Shown piece by piece: positions 15,865 to 50,397 of a stretch of DNA of 50,397 nucleotides. Origin of the DNA: Nannochloropsis salina CCMP1776. Lineage: Eukaryota > Sar > Eustigmatophyceae > Eustigmatales > Monodopsidaceae. The notes beneath the pieces were generated by a model that was given only the letters and a program-made list of their open reading frames with translations, was not told the origin of the DNA and searched no databases. The position numbers were made by a program, and so were the translations under genes. How positions within the stretch are numbered: the first letter of the stretch is position 1; every line of letters starts with the position of its first letter. The DNA is taken from NCBI GenBank assembly GCA_004565275.1, contig SDOX01000050.1:24141-74537 (forward strand), read 5' to 3'.

Positions 15865-18800
15865 CTACCGCTCCTCCTTCACGCACCGGGCGAGCACCAG
15901 GTAGGCCACTACGAGAGCCGCCCCTAAGTACCCGAACAAGACGGTCAGGTTCAGGTCGACGCGGTCGGGTCGAAAGCCTGAGGGAGGGAGGGAGGGAGGG
16001 AGGGAGGGAGGGGTTGTCAGAGGATGAAGGGGGTTATAGCTGGGGGCATGGCTGGAGCGATAAATGCTTCTGTCTCTAGAAAATCAGGCGACGTCGATGC
16101 TGAAAGGCCCGTGGAATGCAAAGCCTTGGCGGCAAGAGACTGCCGTAGTCGTGAGTCTGCACTTCGCCCCTGCTGCCTGCCCTCCCTCCCTCCGTCCCAC
16201 CCTCCCCGTCCTCCCTCCAACCTACCTAGTTGCGTCAAGACGGCTGTCCCGCTCTCAACAGGCAGCTCCGTTAGTGCCCGGCCTACGAGAGCAGAAGGGG
16301 GGGAAGGAGGGAGGGAGGGAGGGAGAGAGGGAGGGAGGGAGAGACGAGCCTGGCGCCTGAGCATCATCCTGAATGAGATCACCGCGCTCTTTTCCTCCTT
16401 CTCTCTCCCTTCTTCCGCCCCTCCCTCCCTCCCTCCCTCCCTCGTTCCTGACCTGCCATCTCGTTCGCCACCAGCGCCTCGTAGCCGTACTGGAAAAAAG
16501 ACAGGTACCGAAGCGCACCCAGCCAGGCCAACCGCATGGTGTCTGGAGGGAGGGACGGAGGGACGGAGGGAGGGACGGAGGGAAAACTTTAAGTGGGGGA
16601 GCGCGCGTGGAGCAAAAGACAAGTGGAAAATAAGCTTCACGTTTCGGACACCGGGCTCAGACAGGGAGGGCAGCGGGTCTGCGCACGCACCAAAATTGAC
16701 GAATATAGCCGTGAGGAGGAGGAGATGGAGCATCAGGATGGTGGCCGTCAGGATACCGCTCATGATGCCTTGGGCTGGAATCCAGAGAGCGAAGGAGGAA
16801 GGGAGGGAGGGAGGTCCTGAGCCCCGACCAGGACCTAGTCGCTCCCTAGGGGAGGCGAGGGGGGCGGGACGCAGGCCGCTGGGGAGCCCACGGGAGCCCT
16901 GAGGGCACTTAAGCTCCCACTTCCCGCCTCCGCTCCCCCTCCTTCCTCCTCCCCTTTCTCTTGTTTGGGCGTGTCTATCCCCTTACCCTCGAGTCCCCTC
17001 CCTCCTTTCCCCTCCCCGTCCTCCTGCTTCTCCACCACCGCCACCTCCATCCCTTCTCCCTTCCTTCCCGGTTTCCCCCCTATGAACAAGGCCTCGATCA
17101 TCAGGTCTCCCACATTCTCCCCTCCCTCCCTCCCTCCTTCCCTCCCCCCCTCTTGTCCCTCCACCCTCCCCCCCGCCCGCCCGCCCAGCCCCCTCGCCGC
17201 CAAAAATGTCTCTGCCTCCGGCCCCAGAGGAGGCCCCTGGTAGACACAGCGGCCGCGGTGGAGGAGGAGGAGGGAGGAGAGCTTGGCGTAGGTCTCTCGC
17301 TTGGGCTGATGGATGGACACCAGGATGGGAATATTCCGTGTCCGTGCTACGGACAGGAGGGTATCGACCAGGACGGCTGGAAGGAAGGGAGGACGGGAGG
17401 AAGGGAGGGAGGGAGGGAGGGAGGGAGAGAGGGAGGGAAGAAAGGTAGTTGTCGGATGGGTCGTCGAGGGGGAGGGCGGGAGAAGGAGGGACGCGTGATG
17501 GAAAGGCAAGGGAGGTGCGTCTCCTCAGTGTTAAAAAGCTCGATATTCTCATACGTCCGCAGCGCGGCCAAAGGCCCTCTTGGAGTTGGATTTCGGTTTG
17601 GCTTCATCCGCGGAGGGCACGACCCGGCAAAGGGGAAAATAAAGAAGAGAAGGGCGGGAAGAAGGTTCTGACGCGGAGAGTGGGCCTCACCTGCGTTGTA
17701 GCTGTCTAAGCCGCTCGTCGGCTCGTCCAAGAACAAGACGGAAGGCGCGCTCAAGAGCTCCATGGCCACGCCCACGCGGCGCTTCTCCCCCCCCGAGATG
17801 CCTCGGTGGGAGGAGCGCTGCACGTCGCCGCCTGCACAATTGAGGGAGGAAGGGAGGGAGGGAGGGAGAAACGGATTGGAAACCGTGACGAGGCGATGCA
17901 TTTTGATCATGGGCAGAACCCAAACCGCCGGGAAAGGGATGCATCCAGGGTCGCGCGCACGATGCCACCCATTCCGTTCCATGACCCGTGCAAGGCCCCC
18001 CTTACCAATGCGGGCGTGCAGCAAGTGGTCAATCCGCAGGCTCTCCATCACCGACACCGCCCGCCGTTGCCGCTCCTCCATCCCCACCCCAGGCCCCAGC
18101 TTCAGCGCCGCCGCCATCAGCACGCTTTCCCCCACGGTCAGTGTCGGCGTCAGTCGGTGCTCCTGGTCCAAGAACCCAAACTGGCTCCTCACGCGCTTCC
18201 TCTGTCCCGCCCTTCCCCCCCTTCCCCCCTCCCCGAGGGGCACCACCTCCTTTCCTCCCTCCTTCCCTACCACCTCCACCTGGCCCCTCGCCCTGCCCCG
18301 ACCCCTCCCCTCCTTCCCCTCCCTCAGCGACAGCAGATCCAGCAGGGTGCTCTTTCCGCTCCCCGAGGGCCCCATGATCCCCACCACCTGCCCGGGCTCT
18401 GCCCTTCCCTCCACGCCTTGCAAGATCTCCCGCCGTGTCCCCTCCGCCTTGCCCCTCGGGCCGGTACCGACGGGGGCGGCGAAAGCCGGGAGGAGGGCAG
18501 CCACGGAGGACGGGGGCGGCGCGGGCACAGTGTAGGAGATCTGTCGCCAGATCAGGGTGGGGCCCGTGGCATGGGAAGGAAGGGGGGAGGGGAGGACGGA
18601 GAGGGGAGGAAAGGGTGGGACGACAGCCGCCGCCGGCCTCACCGCGTCCGTGCTGCCCGTGCGGGAGCCTCCCGGGGCCTTCCCCTCGCCCCCCTTCCCT
18701 GTAAAGGCCTCCGTCGCTCCCTCTACGCTTCCCAGGGCATCGACGGCTGCCCTGCTGTAGCGATAGAGGAGGAGGGAGGCGAGGGAGCTCCCGAGGACGA

Positions 18801-20210
18801 GGAGGAGGACGGCGAGAGCCAAGGCCTGGTTGAGGCGGAAGAGGGCCGAGGGGGAGGACGGGGGCAGAGCGAAGGAGCTGTGCGGGGGGGAGGGGAGAGG
18901 AGCGATGGCTATCCGTGAGTATGCTTCGAGCTCCCGTCAACGAAGCACTGGCAGTCTCGCCTGCCCTCCCTCCCTCCCTCCCTTCCTCCCTACCTCAGCT
19001 CTTGCAGCGTCATGTTCCCCGCGTTCCTAGGCGCGCACTCCCCCAACCGGCACTCGTCGAAGACAATGCCCTTGAAGTAGGCGTCGAGCACTGCCTCGTG
19101 CATCACGCAGGAGTCGCCGTCGGCCTCGCAGATCAGGTCCAGGGTCCCGGTCTTCCCGATGCTCGCCAAGAGCTGGATCATCAGGTCGATGCAAAACGCG
19201 TCCTCAGCCTTGTCGCAGAGGGCGGTGCAGGAGCTCTGCTGGCACTGCATGCCCACACGGGCCCCGCCCGCTGCCCCTTGCGAGTCCTTCTCCTTGCTGA
19301 GCAGGCACTGGCGGCCCGCGCACGAGAAGACTGGTCGAAAGATACCCGGAGAGGGGTTCGCGAAGACTGTCAGGTCGAGCGAGCCAGCATCCGGAGCAGG
19401 CTTCGCTGAGGGAGGCAGGAGAAGGGGGAGGAAAATTCCAAGAAGTGGAGAAAAATTCCCCAGAAGCGTGAGTGTTGTCGCAATGCCCGGACGGCACCCA
19501 GACCGTCTCCGAGAGCGCGCCACCCCCTCAACGACCCTCACACCCTACGCTGCCTCTCCCTTTTCTCGTCCCCTTCCTGAACCTTCCACCCTGTATACCT
19601 CCTTCGCTGTCGGTCATGCCCATTTGCAACGCCAGGGTTCCAGCTCCCCCCAAAAAATCCGCGAAACCCTTGGTAAATATGTTGCAGACCCCTTCGAGCC
19701 GCTGGTACATCGGCAGTGCATGTCGACACAGCTGCCCAGAACCGCACACGGAGTCATCTGTGCACACCTGGAAGACGTGGGGCGATGAGGCGAGGAAAAG
19801 AGCGCGCGTATAAGGCACCCTGCATGTAGATGCTAGGAAGCAGACTTGTGGCCTCTGTAACAAAAGATCAGGGACTACCGTCATTCCCTATCGCAGCGAA
19901 ATGCAAAGAAAATATACCCTCTCATCCTCTGCCAGACGATTTGGCTTACTCGACATTCCGGTCCTGTCCAATTGTCCACGCAGACGCACGCAGCATCTTC
20001 CGTAGGAGGCAAGGCTGCTTCGGAGCTTTGTGCAGCACATTGGATGGGAGGATCCGCTGAAGAGCACGCGACGACGAAGAGCAGGAAGAAGATAAGATGT
20101 ATAATGATGGGTATTCTGGAATGCCAGAAACTTTTTGCGGGGAAATACGTCTTCCGGGGTAGATTTCTTCTTTTCCCTTTCTCCTCCACAACCAGGCAGC
20201 CCTGCGCCAT
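15865..20210 (-). CDS. ABCG-subfamily half transporter with EGF-like/Cys-rich N-terminus; short membrane domain
   Basis: ABCG half transporters export lipids or other hydrophobic substrates. Exons on this strand: 20210-19950, 19767-19599, 19405-18994, 18877-18006, 17831-17701, from 17376, 16774-16691, 16542-16453, then further short exons to a stop at 15865. The N-terminus has a hydrophobic leader (IIIHLIFFLLFVVAC), an EGF-like CVCVDNWTGPEC, then a Cys-rich region and a membrane span (ALAVLLLVLGSSLASLLLY), as in plant ABCG24/28-type proteins. The ATPase is complete in motifs: Walker A GPSGSGKST, Q-loop FGFLDQ, signature ISGGEKRR, Walker B VLFLDEPTSGLD, H-loop SIHQP. The membrane part shows only TM5-like GIMSGILTATILMLHLLLL, LRYLSFFQYGYEALVANEM and the last span (LTVLFGYLGAALVVAYLVL). 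I find no sequence for the first spans. Introns carry GGGA/TCCC tracts. Borders downstream of 16453 are unresolved. Confidence 0.85.
15977..17872. repeat. cluster of (GGGA)n/(TCCC)n microsatellites in ABC introns
   Basis: Tracts at about 15980-16015, 16298-16345, 16420-16445, 16540-16580, 17100-17145, 17398-17440 and 17843-17872 lie in or beside introns. On the coding strand most are TCCC runs leading into acceptors. The purine strand could form G-quadruplexes. Similar tracts occur at 290-320, 650-690, 810-835 and 14755-14800. Confidence 0.85.
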
Positions 20211-21639
20211 CTATATAAGAAATGCGTGCATTGCTGTCAAAAAGGAATCTATCATCGTATCACGACCAAGTACATGCATAAGTTTCCTTATAATTGCCAA
20301 CGTGTTCACGAGAGGGTCCTTCCCGAGTCTCTTTGGGTATATGTCTGCTATGTCGTCTCCGCCGTCCGACAGACAGCTCAAGACTCGCCGAGGGCGCGAA
20401 GAGCGCAAGTCTCGAGAGGAGACCCGCCCTGCCGAGAAATCGTCTAAATACCGGACATGCTGGAAAATATACATCCCGAAGTCACTGGTTTCTATGAAAT
20501 TGAAAGCGATCAAAGCGTCTTGACAGTCGAAGTCGCGCACTGTGGGATCATTTCGCAGCAGAAAATGAAGGACGACGGGGAAAGCGACCCTCTCACGGGT
20601 ATGGTTGCGAGCCAATGACTTGCTGTCAACGCACATAATCAGTACGAGCGTCCCACTCGCGCTCGTATCCAAAAGAAAAGAACAAAGAAAATAACCAAAG
20701 CATGGCGGAGAAATTTCTTGTTGAAAGGAGCGGGAGACGATCCCACCGATGTTTGCATTTGAAGGGCTTTTAATTCCACTTGCAGATTGGGAAATTCAGA
20801 ACCAGGCTCGGAAGATTTGGGAGCGTGCGCATATGAAGCCGGATGGAGGACTCTGCACCAGGGTGAAATCAAATGGCGGTCCGACATATATCCGTATGAT
20901 CGTTCGACATTTCTGCCTGTCACATCCGCGAGCCATATGGGATGCCGGTGTGAATGAAGGTCAATACATGGTGGAAACACCCAAGGGACGCTTTGGTTGC
21001 CGCGGAACTCGGGTTTTGGATGTCTACGGTCATGAGGTACATAAGGCCGACCGTCGCGACTCTTTCTGAAATCTATTATGGCGTGCAAACCAGCAACTAG
21101 GCTCGGACAATCGAAGCCTCACGTCCTTACTTGGTATTTTCGGGATGTTGTGACACATGTCTTTGCGAGGAAAAGTCCCTTAATTTCCTATTGGCTCTCC
21201 TCCCCCCCAGTCGGAAACGAGTGCTGCACGGGTGGGCTGATCTCGCCGCGGGTCCAGCATCGTCATGGACCCCTGAAGGAAAACTCAAGACCTTAATGCT
21301 TCGTTCAAGAATAAGTCCTGTCAGAAACATTACATTTTCAAGGTAAAGTGTCCCAGCATGTCCTGAATTTTTCACTCTCTGGTATTTCCGGTGGCCGAGG
21401 AGATGCCGTCAGTCCGGACTTTATTTCACACAAGGATAGACTACAACGAGGAGACCAACAATCTTCCCCCCTCACACATGCATGTTTATAGAGTAAATGC
21501 GACTTTAGCCTTCCTTGCGAGAGGTACGTGTGAGAAAGCGGATGGGGGAGGAGTACTTTGGGGTTACTCAAAGCTACGGATCTACACGGGACATAAATTT
21601 CAGACGCAGACTCCACCCAGACATCTTATTTTCAAGGCA
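20211..21639. other. divergent promoter region between ABC gene and regulator (copy A)
   Basis: No confident gene. A minus-strand frame at 20211-20672 (DPTVRDFDCQDALIAFNF ... VRYLDDFSAGRVSS) stops with TAG directly before the ABC ATG and in the same frame. Part of it is kept in copy B, but a 4-base indel breaks it there, so coding is doubtful. CTATATAAG at about 20210 is a TATA-like string overlapping the ABC start. Confidence 0.5.
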
Positions 21640-26686: not shown

Positions 26687-28188
26687 CTATATAAGAAATG
26701 CGTGCATTGCTGTCAAAAAGGAATCTATCATCGTATCACGACCAAGTACATGCATTTCCTTACAATTGCCAACGTCTTCACGAGAGGGTCCTTCCCGAGT
26801 CTCTTTGGGTATATGTCTGCTATGTCGTCTCCACCGTCCGACAGACAGCTCAAGACTCGCCGAGGGCGCGAAGAGCGCAAATCTCGAGAGGAGACCCGCC
26901 CTGCCGAGAAATCGTCTAAATACCGGACATGCTGGAAAATATACATCCCGAAGTCACTGGTTTCTATGAAATTGAAAGCGATCAAAGCGTCTTGACAGTC
27001 GAAGTCACGCACTGTGGGGTCATTCTGCAGCAGGCAAGGGAGGACGACGGAGAAACTGGCCCTCTCATGGGCAAGGTCGCGAGCCGAAGATTTGCTGTCA
27101 ACGCACTTTAATAGTACGAGCGTCCCACGCGTGTTCGAATGCAAAAGGAAGGAAAAAGGAAGCAACCAAAGCATGGGGAAGGAGTGACTTGTTGAACGGA
27201 ACGGGAGACGACCGCACCGATGTTTGTGCTTCACGGGCTTTATTTTCCAGTTGTAGATTGGGATATGTTACGCCGGGCTCAGACGATTTTGGCCGTCCCC
27301 ATTTGAAGTGGGAAGGCGGACAAAAATCTTCACACCGGGGTGAAACCAAACAGCTACCCGGCATGAATTCATATCTCGTTTTCCAATCGCTCGACATGTC
27401 TGTCAAATTTTTTCGCGAGTTGCATGGCATACCAGTGTATATAGAGGCCAATACAGGGCACAAACATTTCAAGACTGCTTTCGTCGCCGCGGAACTCGGT
27501 AAATGCATGTCTCCGGCCCTCCGGTCCAAAAGGCCGACCACTGTGACTCGTTCTGAATCTCTGCTTTGGGGAGACGGCGTGCAGGCCATCAACTAGGCTC
27601 GGAAAATCGAGGTTTCACATTTTTACTTGGTAATTTCTGAGTTGCGTGACGGATATCTTTGTTAGGAAAAGCCCTTTAATTTCCTATTGGCTCTTTTCTC
27701 TCCCAAGTCAGCAACGGCTGCCGTACGGGTGGGCTGATCTCGCCGCAGGTACAGCATCGCCATGGACACCCAAAAAAAAAACCAAGACCTTGGTACATCA
27801 TCCAAGAATAAGTCCTGTCAGAAATGCTACGCTTCAAAGGTAACGTGTCCCAGCATGTCCTGAACTCTTCACCTTTTTTATTTTTCCTGCGGCTGAGGAG
27901 ATGCCCCCGCCCCCCTCCACCCGGACTTTATCTCACCCACGGATAGACTGTTATGAGGAGACCAACACCCTCCCCCCCTTACACGTGCATGCTTACAGAG
28001 TAAATGCGACTTTAGCCTTCCTTGCGAGAGGTATGTGTGAGAAAGTCGGTGGGAAAGGAGTACTGGGGGCCGCCCTCAGCCAGAGACGTACAGGAGACAT
28101 AAATTCACACAGACTTGGGTTTACACTCGGACATTCCATTTTCAAGGCATAGACCTGTCACGTCAGCCTTGCAATCACATGTAGACCC
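26687..28188. other. divergent promoter region (copy B), upstream of the Q-rich regulator
   Basis: The counterpart of 20211-21640, nearly identical at the left and diverged to the right. It presumably drives the regulator gene. Small reading frames are not preserved between copies. Confidence 0.45.
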
Positions 28189-42289: not shown

Positions 42290-43978
42290 ATGACTCTTGA
42301 AGCCTCTTCGCGTGGTGGGCATAGGCCTCAAGGAAATCACGTCGCGTCTGCCATGAAAAGCCAGCCTCAAGGAAAGATATGGGGTGCAGCAGAAATTTTT
42401 CGCCGCCGACAACGTCTCATCGCCCTCCAAGCATGTCAGGTGCACCTTTGGTCACCTTTGTTTCGCCCTTGGACGCTGAAATCTCGATCTATTCCGTTGT
42501 CCAGGCCCCTCGTGGAATGGCTGCAGGTAACAGGCATCTTTGAATCAATACCTCCCTCTAGCCATGATTACCATAGTCTTTATATCAAAAATATACATTT
42601 GTAGTGCTTGATCGGTTTTCCAGCAATTTTGTTCCTGCTATTCATGCATCCTCAACAGGCAGACGGGATAGTCTTGCCAGATAACGTTATCCTGACCAGT
42701 ACTGACGGAACGAGCAGTCAATCATATTCCGACAATGAGAACGAAGACATTGGGTGGCGAAGAGGCGATGACCGTCCTAGTGATTCGTCTCTTTCGTTTC
42801 TTTCTGTGTTCGAGCTGGCCTTGACAGAAGCTCTTGCGGAATTGGGTGGACAAGCTGTCCCAAAGATGAATTAGAGCGTGCCTCGCGATGCAGCCTGGTA
42901 TTTGGGAGATGGGATAGTTTTGATGGTTGAGTCTCTATGTTCCTTCGTCACACAGACGCTGCTTTTCAAGCAGGAAGCTTGCCAATGGCCTGTATTTCCC
43001 TGTAACATCCGCTGGGAACATGGACTCCTCTGAGAAATAGAAGGCAGGGAAGGGCATACGCCTTACAACTCTGATCGTTTACCTTTGTTTTTGTACTCTC
43101 TCCTTATCGGCCGGACAGGATCAATGGTGGGACTTTAAAATGCGAGACCCCCGGTGACATCATGCTCCTGCTCAAGAGCTCCGATCGCGTTCAGGAGGAT
43201 CTGAACCGCCTCCTTAAAACGGTGAGAAAGGATGTCGACGAGTCAGGTTACTAAATGGGATGGGACGCGGCTTGTAAACCGCTGTCGATTCTCATAGACG
43301 TGATCTTGTGCACCTCCTTGCCCATTTCCACCCAAACTCCCTCTTTCTGTTTCGGCAGTCCGCGCCTCCCGATACTTCTTTTAGATTCTCGCCCACGCTG
43401 ACGCTCCGGATATGGGCGACCCTGCTCCCCTTTATGCTCTTTCGCTGCTTCATTTATCGTTCCTCTCTCTGTGCCATCAGCCAGCGGGAGCCTTCTGCCT
43501 TCTATCCCTTCCTCGCTGCTGAAGGGTCTCGCCTGAGTACGCTCCTTTATGACTTCTTCCTGCACGAGGGAAGAGAGGGGCTTCGGGCCTTCAGAGACTC
43601 TTTGAACACGGAGATTGGACAACGAAGGATGAAGTGGGAGAAAAAGGAGGACTGGCTGAAGAAACAGAGAAGAAAATGGGAGGAAAAGAAGGCCTGGCTG
43701 TATGCGTGGACGTGTATGTGGACCGACGGGACAAGGTCTGGGTGCTTGACGTAGCTCCTTGGGGCCCGCCCACCGATTCGTTGTTATTTGAGTGGATCGA
43801 GGCGGATGCAGAGGATGACAGTGGGGGACACGTGCCATGGAAGCTCGACTCGATGGATGGTCGCCAGTGTGTTTCAGCGGGAGGAAAGGAGCATGTGATC
43901 TATCGGGTGGGAGACGGAGACATCTCCATAAAGCCGGACACTTGGTCTTCATGTCGCGTCCCTTTGGAGATGAAGTAG
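42290..43978 (+). CDS. CDC123: CDC123 (D123) family eIF2 assembly factor; in-frame TAG at a conserved Trp
   Basis: CDC123 is an ATP-grasp protein that helps join eIF2 alpha and gamma during assembly of translation factor eIF2. Exons: 42290-42526, 42659-42897, 43119-43221, 43359 to about 43630, about 43690-43978; the first four borders are in phase. Family marks: VHLWSPLFRPWTLKSRSIPL, DGIVLPDNV, EDIGWR, GGQAVPKMN, SVPRDAAW, LKCETPGDIMLLLKSSDRV, FRCFIYRSSLCAISQRE and VWVLDVAPWGPPTDSLLFEW. Between KMN and SVPRDAAW the family has Trp, but codon 42872-42874 is TAG in the same frame, while the next donor (42898) and acceptor still splice perfectly. The frame also changes between 43590 and 43700, where an intron starting near GTGGGAG is possible but not proven. 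It is either an allele, a read error, a decaying gene or a recoded stop. An in-frame Met at 42353 is an alternative start. Confidence 0.88.
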
Positions 43979-44332
43979 CACATGGCATCAGAGATATTGG
44001 ATTTGCAAGCGATACAGCGGTCTACGCTCAGAGAGCAAAGAGGAGGCGAGGAAGCGGATGCCAGCGACAGTACTGATGACGGCGCAGGTATTGCATGCAT
44101 AAATTTACTTTGAAAGAATTAAATAGTGCTCTACCTGCTAGTCAAGGGTAAATATTCGGTTTTTGTGTGGAAACAGCGATCTTGCTTTATGCGAGGGTCT
44201 ATGGCGCCTTGCACAACAAAAGCTTGGACACGCCTCCATCTATTTGCGCCAATAACGTAACTATCGGCAGCTGAGAGAGTGCAAAAGAGGACAAATTCAG
44301 TAGAGATGGCAACAGCAAGAGAGTAGAAAGAA
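43979..44332. other. intergenic, 3' of CDC123
   Basis: Holds the 3' end of CDC123. I find no signal-peptide exon here that would supply an N-terminus for the next gene. Confidence 0.4.
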
Positions 44333-46189
44333 ATGCGAACCCACTGCGACGCCCACTGCGACTCCCACTGCCACGCCCCCTGCCACGCCCACGCCGGCGC
44401 CTTGTCGTGGATCATCGTGGAGCAGTGTTTTAAAAAATGTTGGGAAGCGACACCCACTGCCACACCTACTATGTCGCCCACAGCCACACCCACCGCCACG
44501 CCCACAGCCACGCCCACAGCGACAACCACTGCCTCCCCCACTGCCACACCCCCTGCCACACCTACTATGTCGCCCACAGCCACACCCACTGCCATACCTA
44601 CTATGTCGCCGACAGCTACAGACCGTCGTCTCTCGGCGCATCCGGGATCAAGCAGGCATGGAGGCATCATGGCTCTCGGTCAAGCTGGAAACCGACACCT
44701 GCAGTCAATCGATACCCCGGAGGCTTGCTATGAATACTGCTCGCTGAATGCGGGCGAGGTAGTACCGTTCCTCTTCAGCTGGAATACCGTGACCAGACAG
44801 TGCTTCTGCTGCGTCGGAGTGTGCACACCCCTGGTCTTCGATCCTGATTTCAACGTGTACGAAGCGCTCTTGCCTAAGACGTCTTCCCTGACTTCCATTC
44901 CTACTGCGATGCCCACCAAGTCGCCTACTGGCACGCCCACTGCCTCCCCGACTGGGACGCCCCCTGCCACACCTACTATGTCGCCCACAAGCACACCCAC
45001 TACCACACCTACTATGTCGCCGACAGCTACACCCACTGCCACACCTACTATGTCGCCGACAGCCACACCCACTGCCACACCTACTATGTCGCCGACAGCC
45101 TCGCCTACTGCCACACCTACTATGTCGCCCACAGCCACACCCACTGCCACACCTACTATGTCGCCGACAGCCTCGCCTACTGCCACACCTACTATGTCGC
45201 CGACAGCCTCGCCTACTGCCACACCTACTATGTCGCCGACAGCCACACCCACTGCCACACCCACTGCCTCCCCCACGGCTACGCCCACTCCCTCACCTAC
45301 TCCCACGCCCACGCCGGTGCCTGGTCCTGGATCATCGTGGGAGAGTATCTTTGTAAACACTGGAAACAATAATGCCATTGGCTACCACGATGGAACATAC
45401 GTAACCGTCGGCTCACCTTCATCCATTTACTACAGCAACAACAATGGGGTGACTTGGGCTAAGGCAACGACCATTCCACCTACCAGCGCGTACACTGGCG
45501 TCGCCTACGGCAATTCCACATGGGTCGCTGTCGCGCAACAATCGCCATGGGTCGTAAGTAGTGTAGATGCGAATACATGGACCGCTCGGACGCCCGCGGA
45601 GCAGGCGTTTTGGAGGTCGGTCGTATACGGCAACAGTCTCTTTGTGGCAGTGGCAACCAACAAGGTCATGACAAGTCCCGATGGCGAGAGCTGGACGTCT
45701 AGAACATCCGCTGCAAACTCGGCTTGGTGGGACATCACGTATGGGGGTAGTCTCTTCGTCGCCGTAGCCAGTGCTACTTCTGGCACTCTGGTCATGACAA
45801 GCCCAGACGGCAGCAACTGGACAGGTCGAACTGCTGCGACACTCAACAACTGGAGAAGTGTGACCTACGGAGAAAACTTGTTCGTAGCCGTGAGCCAAAC
45901 CGGCACCACCAATCGCGTCATGACAAGCCCGGATGGCACTACATGGACCTCAAGAACGAGCGCCAGTGATAATGATTGGCAAGGCGTGACATGGGGGAAC
46001 GGGACGTTTGTGGCAGTATCCTTTACCGGTACGGGCAACAGGGTGATGACGAGCCCCGACGGCTTCACTTGGACGAACCAAACAAGCGCATCAGATTCCG
46101 ACTGGCAGGACGTTGTTTTCGGGGGAGACAAATTTATTGCTTGTGCAAACCAAGGGACGTGGAAACTCATGAAGAGCATCGTAGCCTGA
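44333..46189 (+). CDS. surface protein, copy 1: PAN/apple-like domain, Pro/Thr stalk, seven-blade propeller; 5'-truncated
   Basis: An open frame of 618 codons. Residues ~1-40 ([12 protein letters not shown]...) are an out-of-frame reading of a stalk repeat and look spurious; there is no signal peptide. A short [11 protein letters not shown] stalk follows, then a Cys-rich module (CYEYCSLN ... QCFCCVGVC ... [10 protein letters not shown]) of PAN/apple type, a long 12-residue repeat stalk ([12 protein letters not shown]), then about 270 residues with seven repeats of the pattern W-x-x-V-x-Y-G ... FVAV ... VMTSPDGxxWTxRT. These Asp-box-like repeats indicate a seven-blade beta-propeller like those of sialidase/BNR proteins, suggesting carbohydrate or protein binding at the cell surface. 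Its paralogue at 49147 has a proper signal peptide and extra N-terminal domain. It may be a truncated gene, or a 5' exon was missed. Confidence 0.75.
44340..44440 (+). pseudogene. remnant of a third surface-gene copy
   Basis: The bases reading [20 protein letters not shown], in a frame different from the following stalk, match the stalk-propeller junction of copy 1 at about 45300-45370 ([20 protein letters not shown]). The propeller then breaks off into a new stalk start. It looks like a recombination scar between surface-gene copies. Confidence 0.75.
44455..45312 (+). repeat. 36-bp coding tandem repeats (Pro/Thr stalk), two arrays
   Basis: Arrays at 44455-44620 and 44890-45312 repeat a 36-base unit such as acacctactatgtcgccga encoding 12 residues of the type [12 protein letters not shown], with Thr/Ser/Ile variants. 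Such Thr/Ser-Pro stalks are usually heavily O-glycosylated. Confidence 0.95.
44621..45029 (+). repeat. near-identical duplicate segment (partner 49768-50176)
   Basis: About 409 bases covering the PAN/apple-like module and stalk start are the same at 49768-50176 except for two substitutions I can see (Arg/Ser at CFCC-upstream; Leu/Pro after TSS). Flanks are unrelated upstream. Confidence 0.95.
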
Positions 46190-46754
46190 GGTATCGCCAG
46201 CTCGCAAGCATCCTCACATGCTTATTACGAATGGCTCAAGCCCCCTCTCTGTTGACAAATCTACGCGAACGGGTCTCCCTCTCTAAGTTTCCTTACTATT
46301 TTATAGCTACTAATAATATATCCCCCTTTCAAAACTCACCTATATTACTTGAGATTCACTCCAAAGTATACGTGTGTGATTCGCTCTTGATATACATGGA
46401 CTTGTCAAAAGCTTCTACTCGCGATATATGCGAGAGAACATGTGACCCAAAATACAAAGAGGTACGGTCTCGACAGTAGTTTCCTCGATGATTTCCGACA
46501 TACGTCCCTATTCATGAGCTGTCCTTCGTCGATTATCCGTGGCAATACACTAAAGCGGTATAACCACAGTAGCAAACTTGTCAGACAAAGAAATATCTAC
46601 GGGAAAACCCGACGACGCGCCATTCGTGAAAGACAATGACTGCTCAGGTAGCGCTCAGCAGCATGACAATGATGATGCGTTCTCCTACCGCACTCATCTT
46701 TTCTTTTGAAACGCATTATCGTGTTGTCTTCTATCTATCTGTATCACTGTTAAG
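46190..46754. other. intergenic, 3' of surface gene copy 1
   Basis: AT-rich. Short frames only; no exon that I can support. Confidence 0.4.
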
Positions 46755-47230
46755 TTGAGTTTCAGCAATGTTGTTCCTGCCTTTCATACATCTGCACGAG
46801 GAGGACGGGGTGGTCTTGCCAGTCGGTCGTTTTATTCCCCAAAAGCATTCTCGTGTATTCAAGCTATCTGTTGCTCGATTGAGCTCGTCAATGTTGCTCC
46901 TGCCTTGCATACATCTGCAAGAGGTGGACGGGGTGGTCTTGCCAGATCACGTTACCCTGACCAGTAGTGACGGAGCTAGCAGTCAACCATGTTCCGACAA
47001 AGACAACGAAGACATTGACTGGCGACGATGCGGTGACCGTGATAATACTTCGTCTCGTTCACTCCTTTGTATGTTCGAGCTAGTCTTCACAGAGGCATTT
47101 GCAAACCTTGGTGGACATGCAGAAGATGAATTGAAGCATGCCTCGCGATGCAGCCTCCTTTGTGAGAGGTGAAATGGCATAAATGGTTAAGTCTTCACGT
47201 GCCTTCGTCTCGCAGACGCTGCTAATCAGG
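46755..47230 (+). pseudogene. CDC123 exon 2 fragment, decayed duplicate
   Basis: 47 kb sequence VDGVVLPDHVTLTSSDGASS, SDKDNEDIDWRR and LVFTEAFANLGGH matches CDC123 exon 2 at 42659-42897 (ADGIVLPDNVILTSTDG, ENEDIGWRR, LALTEALAELGG). A 5-base indel before AAGATGAATT shifts the frame, and the site of the conserved Trp is TGA. The Trp at the exon end and its donor are lost. The acceptor-side ~70 bases are repeated within the fragment (46757-46826 and 46883-46950). There is no good match to the later CDC123 exons downstream. It is a broken host-gene copy lying before the second surface gene, just as CDC123 lies before the first. Confidence 0.85.
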
Positions 47231-49146
47231 CGGAAAGCGAGTGGAAGGAGCTTCGAGAAGAAAAGAATGGCTATGCATGCTTAGACAGGATAAATCAAAC
47301 ATGCAACCACGAGGAGGATGAGATGGAGGAAGAGTCGATGTGAAAGGAAGTAATCTTCGCTAAGCTCTGCGAATCTCTAATTTCTCTGATTTTCTCCTCC
47401 CCCCTCTTTTGTTCTCTCCCTTCCTGCTTACTAGCACCATAGCGCTTGCCTTGCTCCTCCGATCTGAATTATATTCGAATTTCTCGTCTCGGCTGCAATT
47501 CTCCATGCGAGTAACATATTGGCATTTTGCGTGCGATTTCAACCTGGCTTATCACTACGGACTCTTCTCTTCCCTATCTCTACCGAGCCACCTCATCTCT
47601 ATAGGTTGAGGAGGCTGTTATAGCACAATCGCCTCTAGCCTTGCTGATGCTTTTGCCTCTTCAAGGAGATTTCCCCTTCCTCCCCTCTTACACGTTGTAT
47701 ACAAACGTGCCCTGGTACCTTACAGCTGCATGAATCAACCCAAGCTCTGGCTGGGGAAATCGACACCTTTGGCATTCCGGCTCCGTGCCCGTCTGTCCCC
47801 GCGCGATTTATTTGGAATCTTATCCGCCGTTGCCATTCCCGTCTTTTGAGACAAGACCACCGTCGCTGCGGCTACCAAAATGCTCTACCTTTCACGATTA
47901 ACACCTGGGTAATGGCAATCGAATTTGATGTAGCCAGAGTCCAAGTACGCAGGAATGCTCTGGGAAAGTCCGGTAAAGATATCATTAAACCTATTTGTCG
48001 GCGTTTGCGGTGCTATGGTTGGCTCGAGGCAGACCGGCATCATATCGAGCAATGTCTATGGGACTTCTCTTATCGTGGCCTACAACGACATTGGGAATGT
48101 AGAATACAAAGATGTCCCAACATATATACATATCTATATTTCAAAAATGTGTGTGTATGTATGTGTGTGTTTTTCTGTGGTTGTGTGCGTGTGTGTGTGT
48201 TTACAAAGCCAGCTTGAGGTATGTGTTAATTTCCTTCAAACAGAATTTAGCCGGTAAGCGAGGCCAGAAGATGTCTTCGCATTCACGTCGTGAACGCTAA
48301 ATATCTCAGACTTCTTATCCATGCTAGCCTTCATTCCGAGATTATTTTCTCTTTTCATTCTACATGTACATGCATGGTGCAGACAGAACGACACCAAAGC
48401 CTGGCCGCTTACTGAGACGCCCGACCATGTCGTGTGCTTGGTAGCGTCAATTTAAACGTTTGAATATTCTGTTGAAACGTCAGCGGCCAGGACATGAGAG
48501 ACAGTTGTCGTTATTTCTCGTCAATCGCATAGAGAGGAAGCTATATTCGTACGTGAATCGTAATGTCACCAGTAAGATTGTGGATTTTCTTGCAACCAAA
48601 TACATGGCATTCGATTTTCCTCGATTTTCACGTGCCCAAGCTGTCGCCTTCAAGAAGGTACGCGATGGAAAAGCACATTTCGTGCTGTGGCTTTCCGTTT
48701 CGTGCAGTGGCGTCCCTTTTTCAAAGCGAGAGGCTCCAAATATGTCACCTTTCTAGGAGAAGCATCGACTGATAATATGTCTAGACTTCCGATGCATTAC
48801 TTTCCCTCTTGCAATGGTTTCTGTTATGACATGCCAATTAAGTCGTGCCATTCAAGGTCGTTGGTGATGGCCCCTAGCTCTCGTGATAGGATGCGCTGCT
48901 GAGGACATCCTAGCGTCTCTCTGTGAACATCAACGGAACCAAGCGAGGTATATATTCTCGTTCTGTTTTAGATGTAAATAAAATAGCGATAAATGCACTT
49001 CTACCCTCACTTATTGCAGATAGCTGCATCACCCAGAATTCATGTACACCCCGAGCTCATGTTTCCGCATTTTCTAACCATTCGATCCGTCGGAAGCTTC
49101 AAAGCAAAGTTCACAGGTGCCCTTTCAAGCACAGATTCAGCAGAGT
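47231..49146. other. about 1.9 kb without a supported gene
   Basis: Includes possible but unproven coding segments: 47960-48120 (+) reading LFVGVCGAMVGSRQTGIISS then NVYGTSLIVAYNDIGN, and a 98-codon frame at 48460-48756 (RIERKLYSYVNRNVTSKIVD). Neither has convincing splice partners. They could be decayed parts of the duplicated block or a small unrecognised gene. The promoter of the 49147 gene should lie at the right end. Confidence 0.4.
48148..48201. repeat. imperfect (GT)n microsatellite
   Basis: Alternating GT with occasional A and T interruptions. Confidence 0.95.
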
Positions 49147-50397
49147 ATGAAAATTTCCTCAAGCGCATTCCTTGTCGCTCTCGTGGGCTTCACAAGCATT
49201 TTGACCACCGTCTCGCAAGAATGTCCGCGGCTTCTTCTCAAGGCCAAAGTAAGGCCGAATACAAAGCGCGGGATCCTGGCAGGGAAGGGCCAGGCCAAGA
49301 TTACCGTCACACTAAAGAGCAAAGACCCCGTCGACAATCTGGAGTTTCTACTGAACCTGCCAAATGGCTTATCGGTTGAGCGGACAGCAATGCGCCCGTC
49401 CTCAAAGCCCTATACGCCGCCGCAAATTGTTGAGGATACGGATGGAACGACTGCTATTTACTGGCTTGGCGTCGCCTTCACCAAAAGCAAGGGAGGAAAG
49501 CGCCGCTTTCGCGTCAAGGTGAAGGCCGACGAGTGTGCCCCTGAGACGTTGGCGGTGGATGCTTTTGCTTACCTAGTGAATGCTACAGATACCTCATGCA
49601 TCACGCCGCTGGCCAGCCCCGCCATCGTAAAAGTGCGATACTCGAAACTCAAAAATGCCGCGACTTGCGCGCCGACGCCAGCTCCTACTATCAATCCTAC
49701 GCAGCCTTTTGTGCTTCTTGGCGAGGGCCAGCGATTCTCTCAAGGAGGGCGTCTGGCCCCCTTTCAGGACCGTCGTCTCTCGGCGCATCCGGGATCAAGC
49801 AGGCATGGAGGCATCATGGCTCTCGGTCAAGCTGGAAACCGACACCTGCAGTCAATCGATACCCCGGAGGCTTGCTATGAATACTGCTCGCTGAATGCGG
49901 GCGAGGTAGTACCGTTCCTCTTCAGCTGGAATACCGTGACCAGCCAGTGCTTCTGCTGCGTCGGAGTGTGCACACCCCTGGTCTTCGATCCTGATTTCAA
50001 CGTGTACGAAGCGCTCTTGCCTAAGACGTCTTCCCCGACTTCCATTCCTACTGCGATGCCCACCAAGTCGCCTACTGGCACGCCCACTGCCTCCCCGACT
50101 GGGACGCCCCCTGCCACACCTACTATGTCGCCCACAAGCACACCCACTACCACACCTACTATGTCGCCGACAGCCTCGCCCACTGGCTCGCCCACTGCCA
50201 CACCTACTATGTCGCCCACAGCCACACCCACTGCCACACCTACTATGTCGCCCACAGCCTCGCCCACTGGCTCGCCTACTGCCACACCTACTATGTCGCC
50301 CACAGCCACACCCACTGCCACACCGACTATGTCGCCGACAGCCACACCCACTGCCACACCTACTATGTCGCCGACAGCCTCGCCTACTGCCACACCT
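49147..50397 (+). CDS. surface protein, copy 2: signal peptide, Ig-like domain, PAN/apple-like domain, Pro/Thr stalk; cut by window edge
   Basis: The frame is open from the ATG at 49147 to the end of the window (417 codons). It starts with a signal peptide ([20 protein letters not shown]). Residues ~25-165 ([55 protein letters not shown]) resemble a DUF11-type Ig-like adhesion domain. A short linker with [13 protein letters not shown] leads to the PAN/apple-like module ([26 protein letters not shown]), near-identical to copy 1, and then the stalk of 12-residue repeats including [15 protein letters not shown] variants absent from copy 1. By analogy a seven-blade propeller should follow beyond the window. 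The protein is probably secreted or wall-attached with a glycosylated stalk. Confidence 0.88.
49768..50176 (+). repeat. near-identical duplicate segment (partner 44621-45029)
   Basis: Second copy of the 409-base segment. Here it is preceded in frame by the Ig-like domain; identity starts at GACCGTCGTCTC. Confidence 0.95.
50036..50397 (+). repeat. 36-bp coding tandem repeats (Pro/Thr stalk) of copy 2
   Basis: The same 12-residue unit as in copy 1, with inserted [12 protein letters not shown] variants giving a longer period. The array continues past the window edge. Confidence 0.95.

Follow-up and report, generated by a model that had tools for sequence, protein, structure and literature searches.

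Does a gene whose conserved tryptophan codon has been replaced by a stop codon still provide CDC123, the chaperone of eIF2 assembly? The question is raised by a locus of Nannochloropsis salina CCMP1776 that lies in the window analysed here, the right-hand 50,397 bases of the 74,537-base contig C71. An earlier note on this stretch reported a TAG at the conserved Trp of CDC123 and a TGA at the matching site of a decayed duplicate, and offered read error, a pseudogene with a good copy elsewhere, stop readthrough and A-to-I RNA editing as explanations. We conclude that the locus is very probably a CDC123 pseudogene. This assignment follows from several lesions of different kinds together with the loss of catalytic motifs.

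Gene model and lesions of the CDC123 locus

The name given to the gene proved right. The profile PF07065 (D123) matches the conceptual read-through product, with X written at the stops, at 196 bits (cut-off 24, E = 9e-58), and in a profile search of the genome the exons span positions 1-259 of the 300 profile positions in four stretches above the cut-off. Four distinct sequences of solved chains named CDC123 also match the read-through product, one with E = 3e-41 and three with E = 3e-26 to 5e-26. The latter three look like variants of one protein, and the four chains like representatives of two proteins. The exons and introns of the full-length copy (copy 1) are listed in Table 1 with the other features discussed below. 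The profile search row that covers exons 1 and 2 reports two TAGs, one at 42872 and another, which we take to be the in-frame TAG at 42602 within intron 1.

Table 1. Coordinates, in the window, of the CDC123 locus, its partial second copy and associated repeats.
Feature	Position	Strand	Remarks
CDC123 full-length copy (copy 1)	42353 to about 44110	+	exon-intron order kept
Exon 1	42353..42526	+	58 codons, ends in phase 0; CQ-x3-W aligned to solved CDC123
Intron 1	42527..42658	+	GT-AG, 132 bases, in phase
Exon 2	42659..42897	+	carries PKMN-TAG-SVPRDAAW
In-frame TAG at conserved Trp codon	42872..42874	+	exon 2; motif PKLNWS
Intron 2	42898..43118	+	GT-AG, 221 bases, in phase
Exon 3	43119..43221	+	INGGTLKCETPGDIMLLLKSSD...; profile and solved-chain match
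Intron 3	43222..43358	+	GT-AG, 137 bases, in phase
Exon 4, first part	43359..43700	+	ExR is LFR; Lys/Glu-rich end, frame lost within
C-terminal part, other frame	43700..43975	+	VDVYVDRRDKVWVLDVAPWGPPTDSLLFEW...; DxN is DVA
Second in-frame TAG	43976..43978	+	after RVPLEMK; 44 more open codons beyond
Short extra repeat	46760..46822	+	exon 2 start and preceding bases; 79% identity over 63 bases
Partial second copy	46889..47238	+	exon 2 plus 80 bases from the start of intron 2; 76% identity
TGA at the codon matching the TAG of copy 1	47132..47134	+	not in frame with the exon that precedes it
198-base stretch	47153..47350	+	starts at exon 2 end of second copy; recurs close to an end in six other contigs at 84-89% identity
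Contigs with a near-end match to the Thr/Pro-repeat family			C17, C23, C26, C33, C37, C41, C57, C64, C70, C78, C87, C96

The TAG is real and lies in the frame of exon 2, where it forms residue 130 of the conceptual product of the spliced model; the residue aligned with it is W in all four solved CDC123 chains. When the K104 and A109 numbering of the published work is mapped by alignment, the site would correspond to human W107 and adjoin the ATP-binding pocket, in which A109 and R111 are placed by PMC12860950. As an observation on the side, the codon at 42878-42880, in the place of human A109, encodes Val. A109V is described as a temperature-sensitive CDC123 allele (PMC12860950), and since Thr occupies this place in another solved CDC123, the Val may mean little.

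Everything downstream of the TAG was said to splice in phase (donor 42898, acceptor 43118). This holds for the three GT-AG introns of the model but not for exon 4, which changes frame. Up to 43565 (from 43362) the profile is matched in one frame, and from 43700 onwards it is matched in another, the change falling between about 43566 and 43700. Between 43540 and 43710, no GT-AG intron of 20 or more bases joins the two frames. Six GC-AG pairs, 35 to 86 bases in length, occur in the same region; in these, 5 to 10 of the 20 bases preceding the AG are pyrimidines, and for want of a pyrimidine-rich end we judged them not credible and rejected a hidden intron as the source of the frame change. The Lys/Glu-rich stretch of exon 4 is not odd in itself, because eukaryotic CDC123s are described as often having low-complexity inserts (PMC4431377). 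Beyond the frame change, the TAG at 43976-43978 could be a further lesion or could mark a gene that naturally ends early; within the explanation favored here it is probably a second disabling stop. The spliced model is thus no continuous open reading frame: it is broken by the TAG of exon 2, the frame change of exon 4 and this TAG.

Substitutions in the ATP site accompany these lesions. K104, D233, D246xN248 and an ExR motif are given as conserved features of CDC123 in PMC4431377. By alignment to solved CDC123, the locus keeps the K, D233 and D246, while N248 is replaced by A and the E of ExR by L, and the window gene does not carry the complete set of ATP-grasp residues. The loss of motifs would by itself be no proof of a dead gene, since some lineages, notably apicomplexans, may retain a CDC123 that has lost its activity, as stated in the same paper. 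Across five ungapped segments chosen by hand, 51 of the 71 positions that are identical in the two solved CDC123 proteins are kept in the window and 20 are changed; of the 47 positions that differ between the two proteins, 20 have in the window the residue of one or the other. Exons 1 to 3 contain no other in-frame stop, none of the splice sites is damaged and the product scores high against the profile, which argues that the decay is recent or that constraint persisted for some time.

Partial second copy and subtelomeric setting

A DNA search of the genome with window positions 42300-44060 returned the query itself and one partial copy. At 46300-47800, around this second copy, no match was found to exon 1, 3 or 4. 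The duplicate at about 47.1 kb does have a TGA at the codon aligned with the TAG, as had been reported, but a 5-base deletion just upstream takes this TGA out of the frame of its exon 2. A 31-base pattern, written by hand from both copies, occurs twice in the sequence and never in 100 shuffles at up to 3 mismatches. The two copies differ less in exon 2 (41 of 197 positions) than in the intron part (26 of 84). Their dN/dS is 0.76 (65 codons; bootstrap 95% interval 0.39-1.72), a value that is compatible with neutral decay without proving it and also with weak purifying selection. As the earlier note rightly pointed out, a single G-to-A change turns TGG into TAG or TGA; a single A-to-G change in TAA likewise gives either codon, and therefore a stop predating the duplication would be just as parsimonious as two separate hits.

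The CDC123 locus is 6-8 kb away from the contig end. Among the six other contig ends that share the 198-base stretch of the second copy, three have TTAGGG-type arrays, two have N and one has neither. About 80 bases at the start of intron 2 in copy 1 are related to this stretch (73-84% identity over 49 to 86 bases). The locus adjoins members of a Thr/Pro-repeat (TATPTMSP) protein family at 44327-46189 and 49144-50397. With window positions 48846-50060, the start of the protein, as query (at least 46 rows, 40 of 46 candidates scored), this family has a match no more than about 6 kb from an end in at least 12 further contigs (Table 1); some matches also lie farther from known contig ends or on contigs whose length is not known. 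From these shared repeats and the duplication we take it that the CDC123 locus probably belongs to a subtelomeric region that has undergone rearrangement.

Further repeats and genes were observed. The segments 44621-44920 and 49768-50067 form a 300-base stretch that is 99% identical, far closer than the two CDC123 copies are to each other, which suggests a recent exchange between members of the Thr/Pro-repeat family. Another near-end family (loci L074-L079) has repeated exons of the form SPGIVVKVNLTDFSRVNSLALEDGEN-x-L-TSVVSGEYAYFG; its tail is the 198-base stretch also found at 47153-47350, and three of its loci lie beside TTAGGG-type arrays. Two minus-strand frames, 20211-20795 and 26728-27267, share a long and near-identical peptide run (DFDCQDALIAFNFIETSDFGMYIFQHVRYLDDFSAGRVSS...), a further duplication within the window. 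The window also contains a gene with an ABC transporter domain (PF00005) at 17347-18936 on the minus strand.

Search for an intact CDC123 and alternative explanations

The earlier note made its pseudogene option depend on a good copy elsewhere. Such a copy did not turn up: in the 26.5-Mb assembly (103 contigs), no other CDC123 was found with the D123 profile, a solved CDC123 protein as query or the DNA of window positions 42300-44060. The four stretches returned by the profile and the three returned by the protein query all belong to the window gene. By the same method eIF2gamma and eIF2alpha were found in the assembly, as were control families whose rows we grouped by eye into loci, so that the numbers count loci rather than subunits: chaperonins with 10 loci above the cut-off and one below (18 rows), the proteasome family with 22 loci (35 rows), and MCM proteins with 7 strong and two weak loci (16 rows). 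Nothing in these families points to large missing parts of the assembly. C71 as given includes N runs of 6,336 and 1,074 bases, which are either gaps or withheld sequence, and it stops inside a repeat.

The organism might be supposed to have lost its working CDC123 altogether, the relic in the window being its only gene and eIF2 being assembled without the chaperone. This supposition shares the pseudogene reading of the locus and departs from it in denying an intact copy. It is in keeping with the searches, in which profile and protein query match the window locus only while the control genes are recovered. According to PMC8844851, CDC123 is essential in yeast and counts among the core essential genes of human cells, but yeast tolerates its deletion when eIF2gamma and eIF2alpha are overproduced, and the factor of archaea does without Cdc123; since yeast can live without CDC123 when these two subunits are overexpressed, a loss is possible in principle. 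Against it stand the N runs of C71 and its end in a repeat. The C-terminal domain of eIF2gamma, which is bound by CDC123, is matched by its profile over the whole length. Compared by eye with yeast and human sequences, this domain looks ordinary, and a truncated C-terminus that would explain independence of CDC123 was not seen in that comparison; this, too, speaks against a true loss. We regard such a loss as unlikely on balance, and our guess is that a working CDC123 sits in missing or unassembled sequence.

The other explanations concern the stop codons themselves. Errors of reading or assembly could have introduced the stop and the frame break into a good gene, and the N runs of C71 as given would lend this some color. 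However, both ATP-site substitutions and the 20 changed positions among the 71 shared ones do not resemble base errors, and 63 of 69 match rows of the control families are without internal stop; in four of the remaining six, the stops sit at a match boundary or beyond the presumed exon end, as judged by eye. Given several lesions of more than one kind, read error, one of the causes first proposed, is very doubtful as the whole cause. Readthrough of the stop, or a suppressor tRNA, would yield a full-length CDC123 from the locus, and exons 1 to 3 are indeed otherwise open and correctly spliced in the model. Yet TAG serves as a normal terminator in this assembly. The first stop after the conserved domain, which was taken as the gene end and which an intron could mimic, is TAG in 6, TAA in 4 and TGA in 2 of 12 control genes, with eIF2gamma among the TAG genes. 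These genes were picked from 16 fetched loci for having no internal stop in their search rows; left out were four loci (L038-L041) whose stop, by eye, either occupies the first or last codon of the matched part or falls beyond the presumed exon end. Since TAG is the first stop in half of the selected genes, it does not appear to be reassigned, and we rejected TAG recoding. A strict pattern for a tRNA with a CTA anticodon, run without a positive control, found nothing, and in the tRNA family search (63 of 582 candidates scored, at least 55 matches) none of the 30 loci passed through ARAGORN has a CTA anticodon. The tRNA clusters on C102 and C103 look organellar, and these two contigs may represent a mitochondrial and a plastid genome. 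Among the literature matches listed, no title dealt with nonsense codons or readthrough in Nannochloropsis, and no paper was found that joins CDC123 with Nannochloropsis.

A-to-I editing, finally, would turn the UAG, and the UGA of the second copy, into a Trp codon, and the arithmetic of the codons is what speaks for it. The TGA of the second copy is off the frame of its exon, so that editing there would restore nothing, and TAA as a common ancestor accounts for the TAG/TGA pair equally well. The profile A_deamin (PF02137) has no match in this assembly, a result that counts for little, as 14 control genomes likewise gave none. Editing and readthrough share a further difficulty: neither would repair the frame of exon 4 or bring back the two lost ATP-site motifs, so neither yields a normal CDC123. 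Programmed readthrough entails that the sense frame continues across the stop and gives a functional protein, and here the exon 4 frame and the ATP-site motifs are lost. Neither proposal is supported; readthrough seems to us extremely improbable, and the chance of editing close to negligible. The stops at the matching site are best explained as ordinary nonsense codons without a recoding signal.

The pseudogene option of the earlier note is thus the one we favor, on account of the TAG, the exon 4 frame change without a usable GT-AG intron, the second TAG and the motif losses, and presumably no functional protein is made. Within what is probably a duplicated and rearranged subtelomeric region, copy 1 has kept its exon-intron order but carries the TAG in exon 2, the frame break, probably the second stop, and the substitutions in ExR and DxN. 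Since the partial copy includes intron sequence, it probably arose by duplication at the DNA level, and it would then have decayed on its own. As a pseudogene the locus is ordinary, and it matters only if a complete assembly proves to be without an intact CDC123. In that event the organism would show that eIF2 assembly independent of CDC123 occurs in nature, and it could be used to test directly what makes CDC123 necessary in yeast and human cells.

Relation to known systems

The closest known system is the CDC123/D123 family (PF07065) of the R2K ATP-grasp clade. Its motifs CQ-x3-W, PK-x-N, S-x-P-R-D-A-x-W, KSSD, FRCF, QR, D-x-Y and TDxLLFxW are recognizable in the locus, which departs from the family in having TAG for the Trp codon, a frame break in exon 4, LFR for ExR and DVA for DxN. 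Duplicated pseudogenes of subtelomeric regions are a known kind of locus. Unlike these, the window locus has no parent gene that we found in the assembly; like them, it combines a duplicate in the form of a partial second copy, repeats shared with other contig ends and several lesions. With three introns retained in copy 1, sequence of intron 2 in copy 2 and more than one disabling lesion, it resembles in these respects an unprocessed (duplicated) pseudogene.
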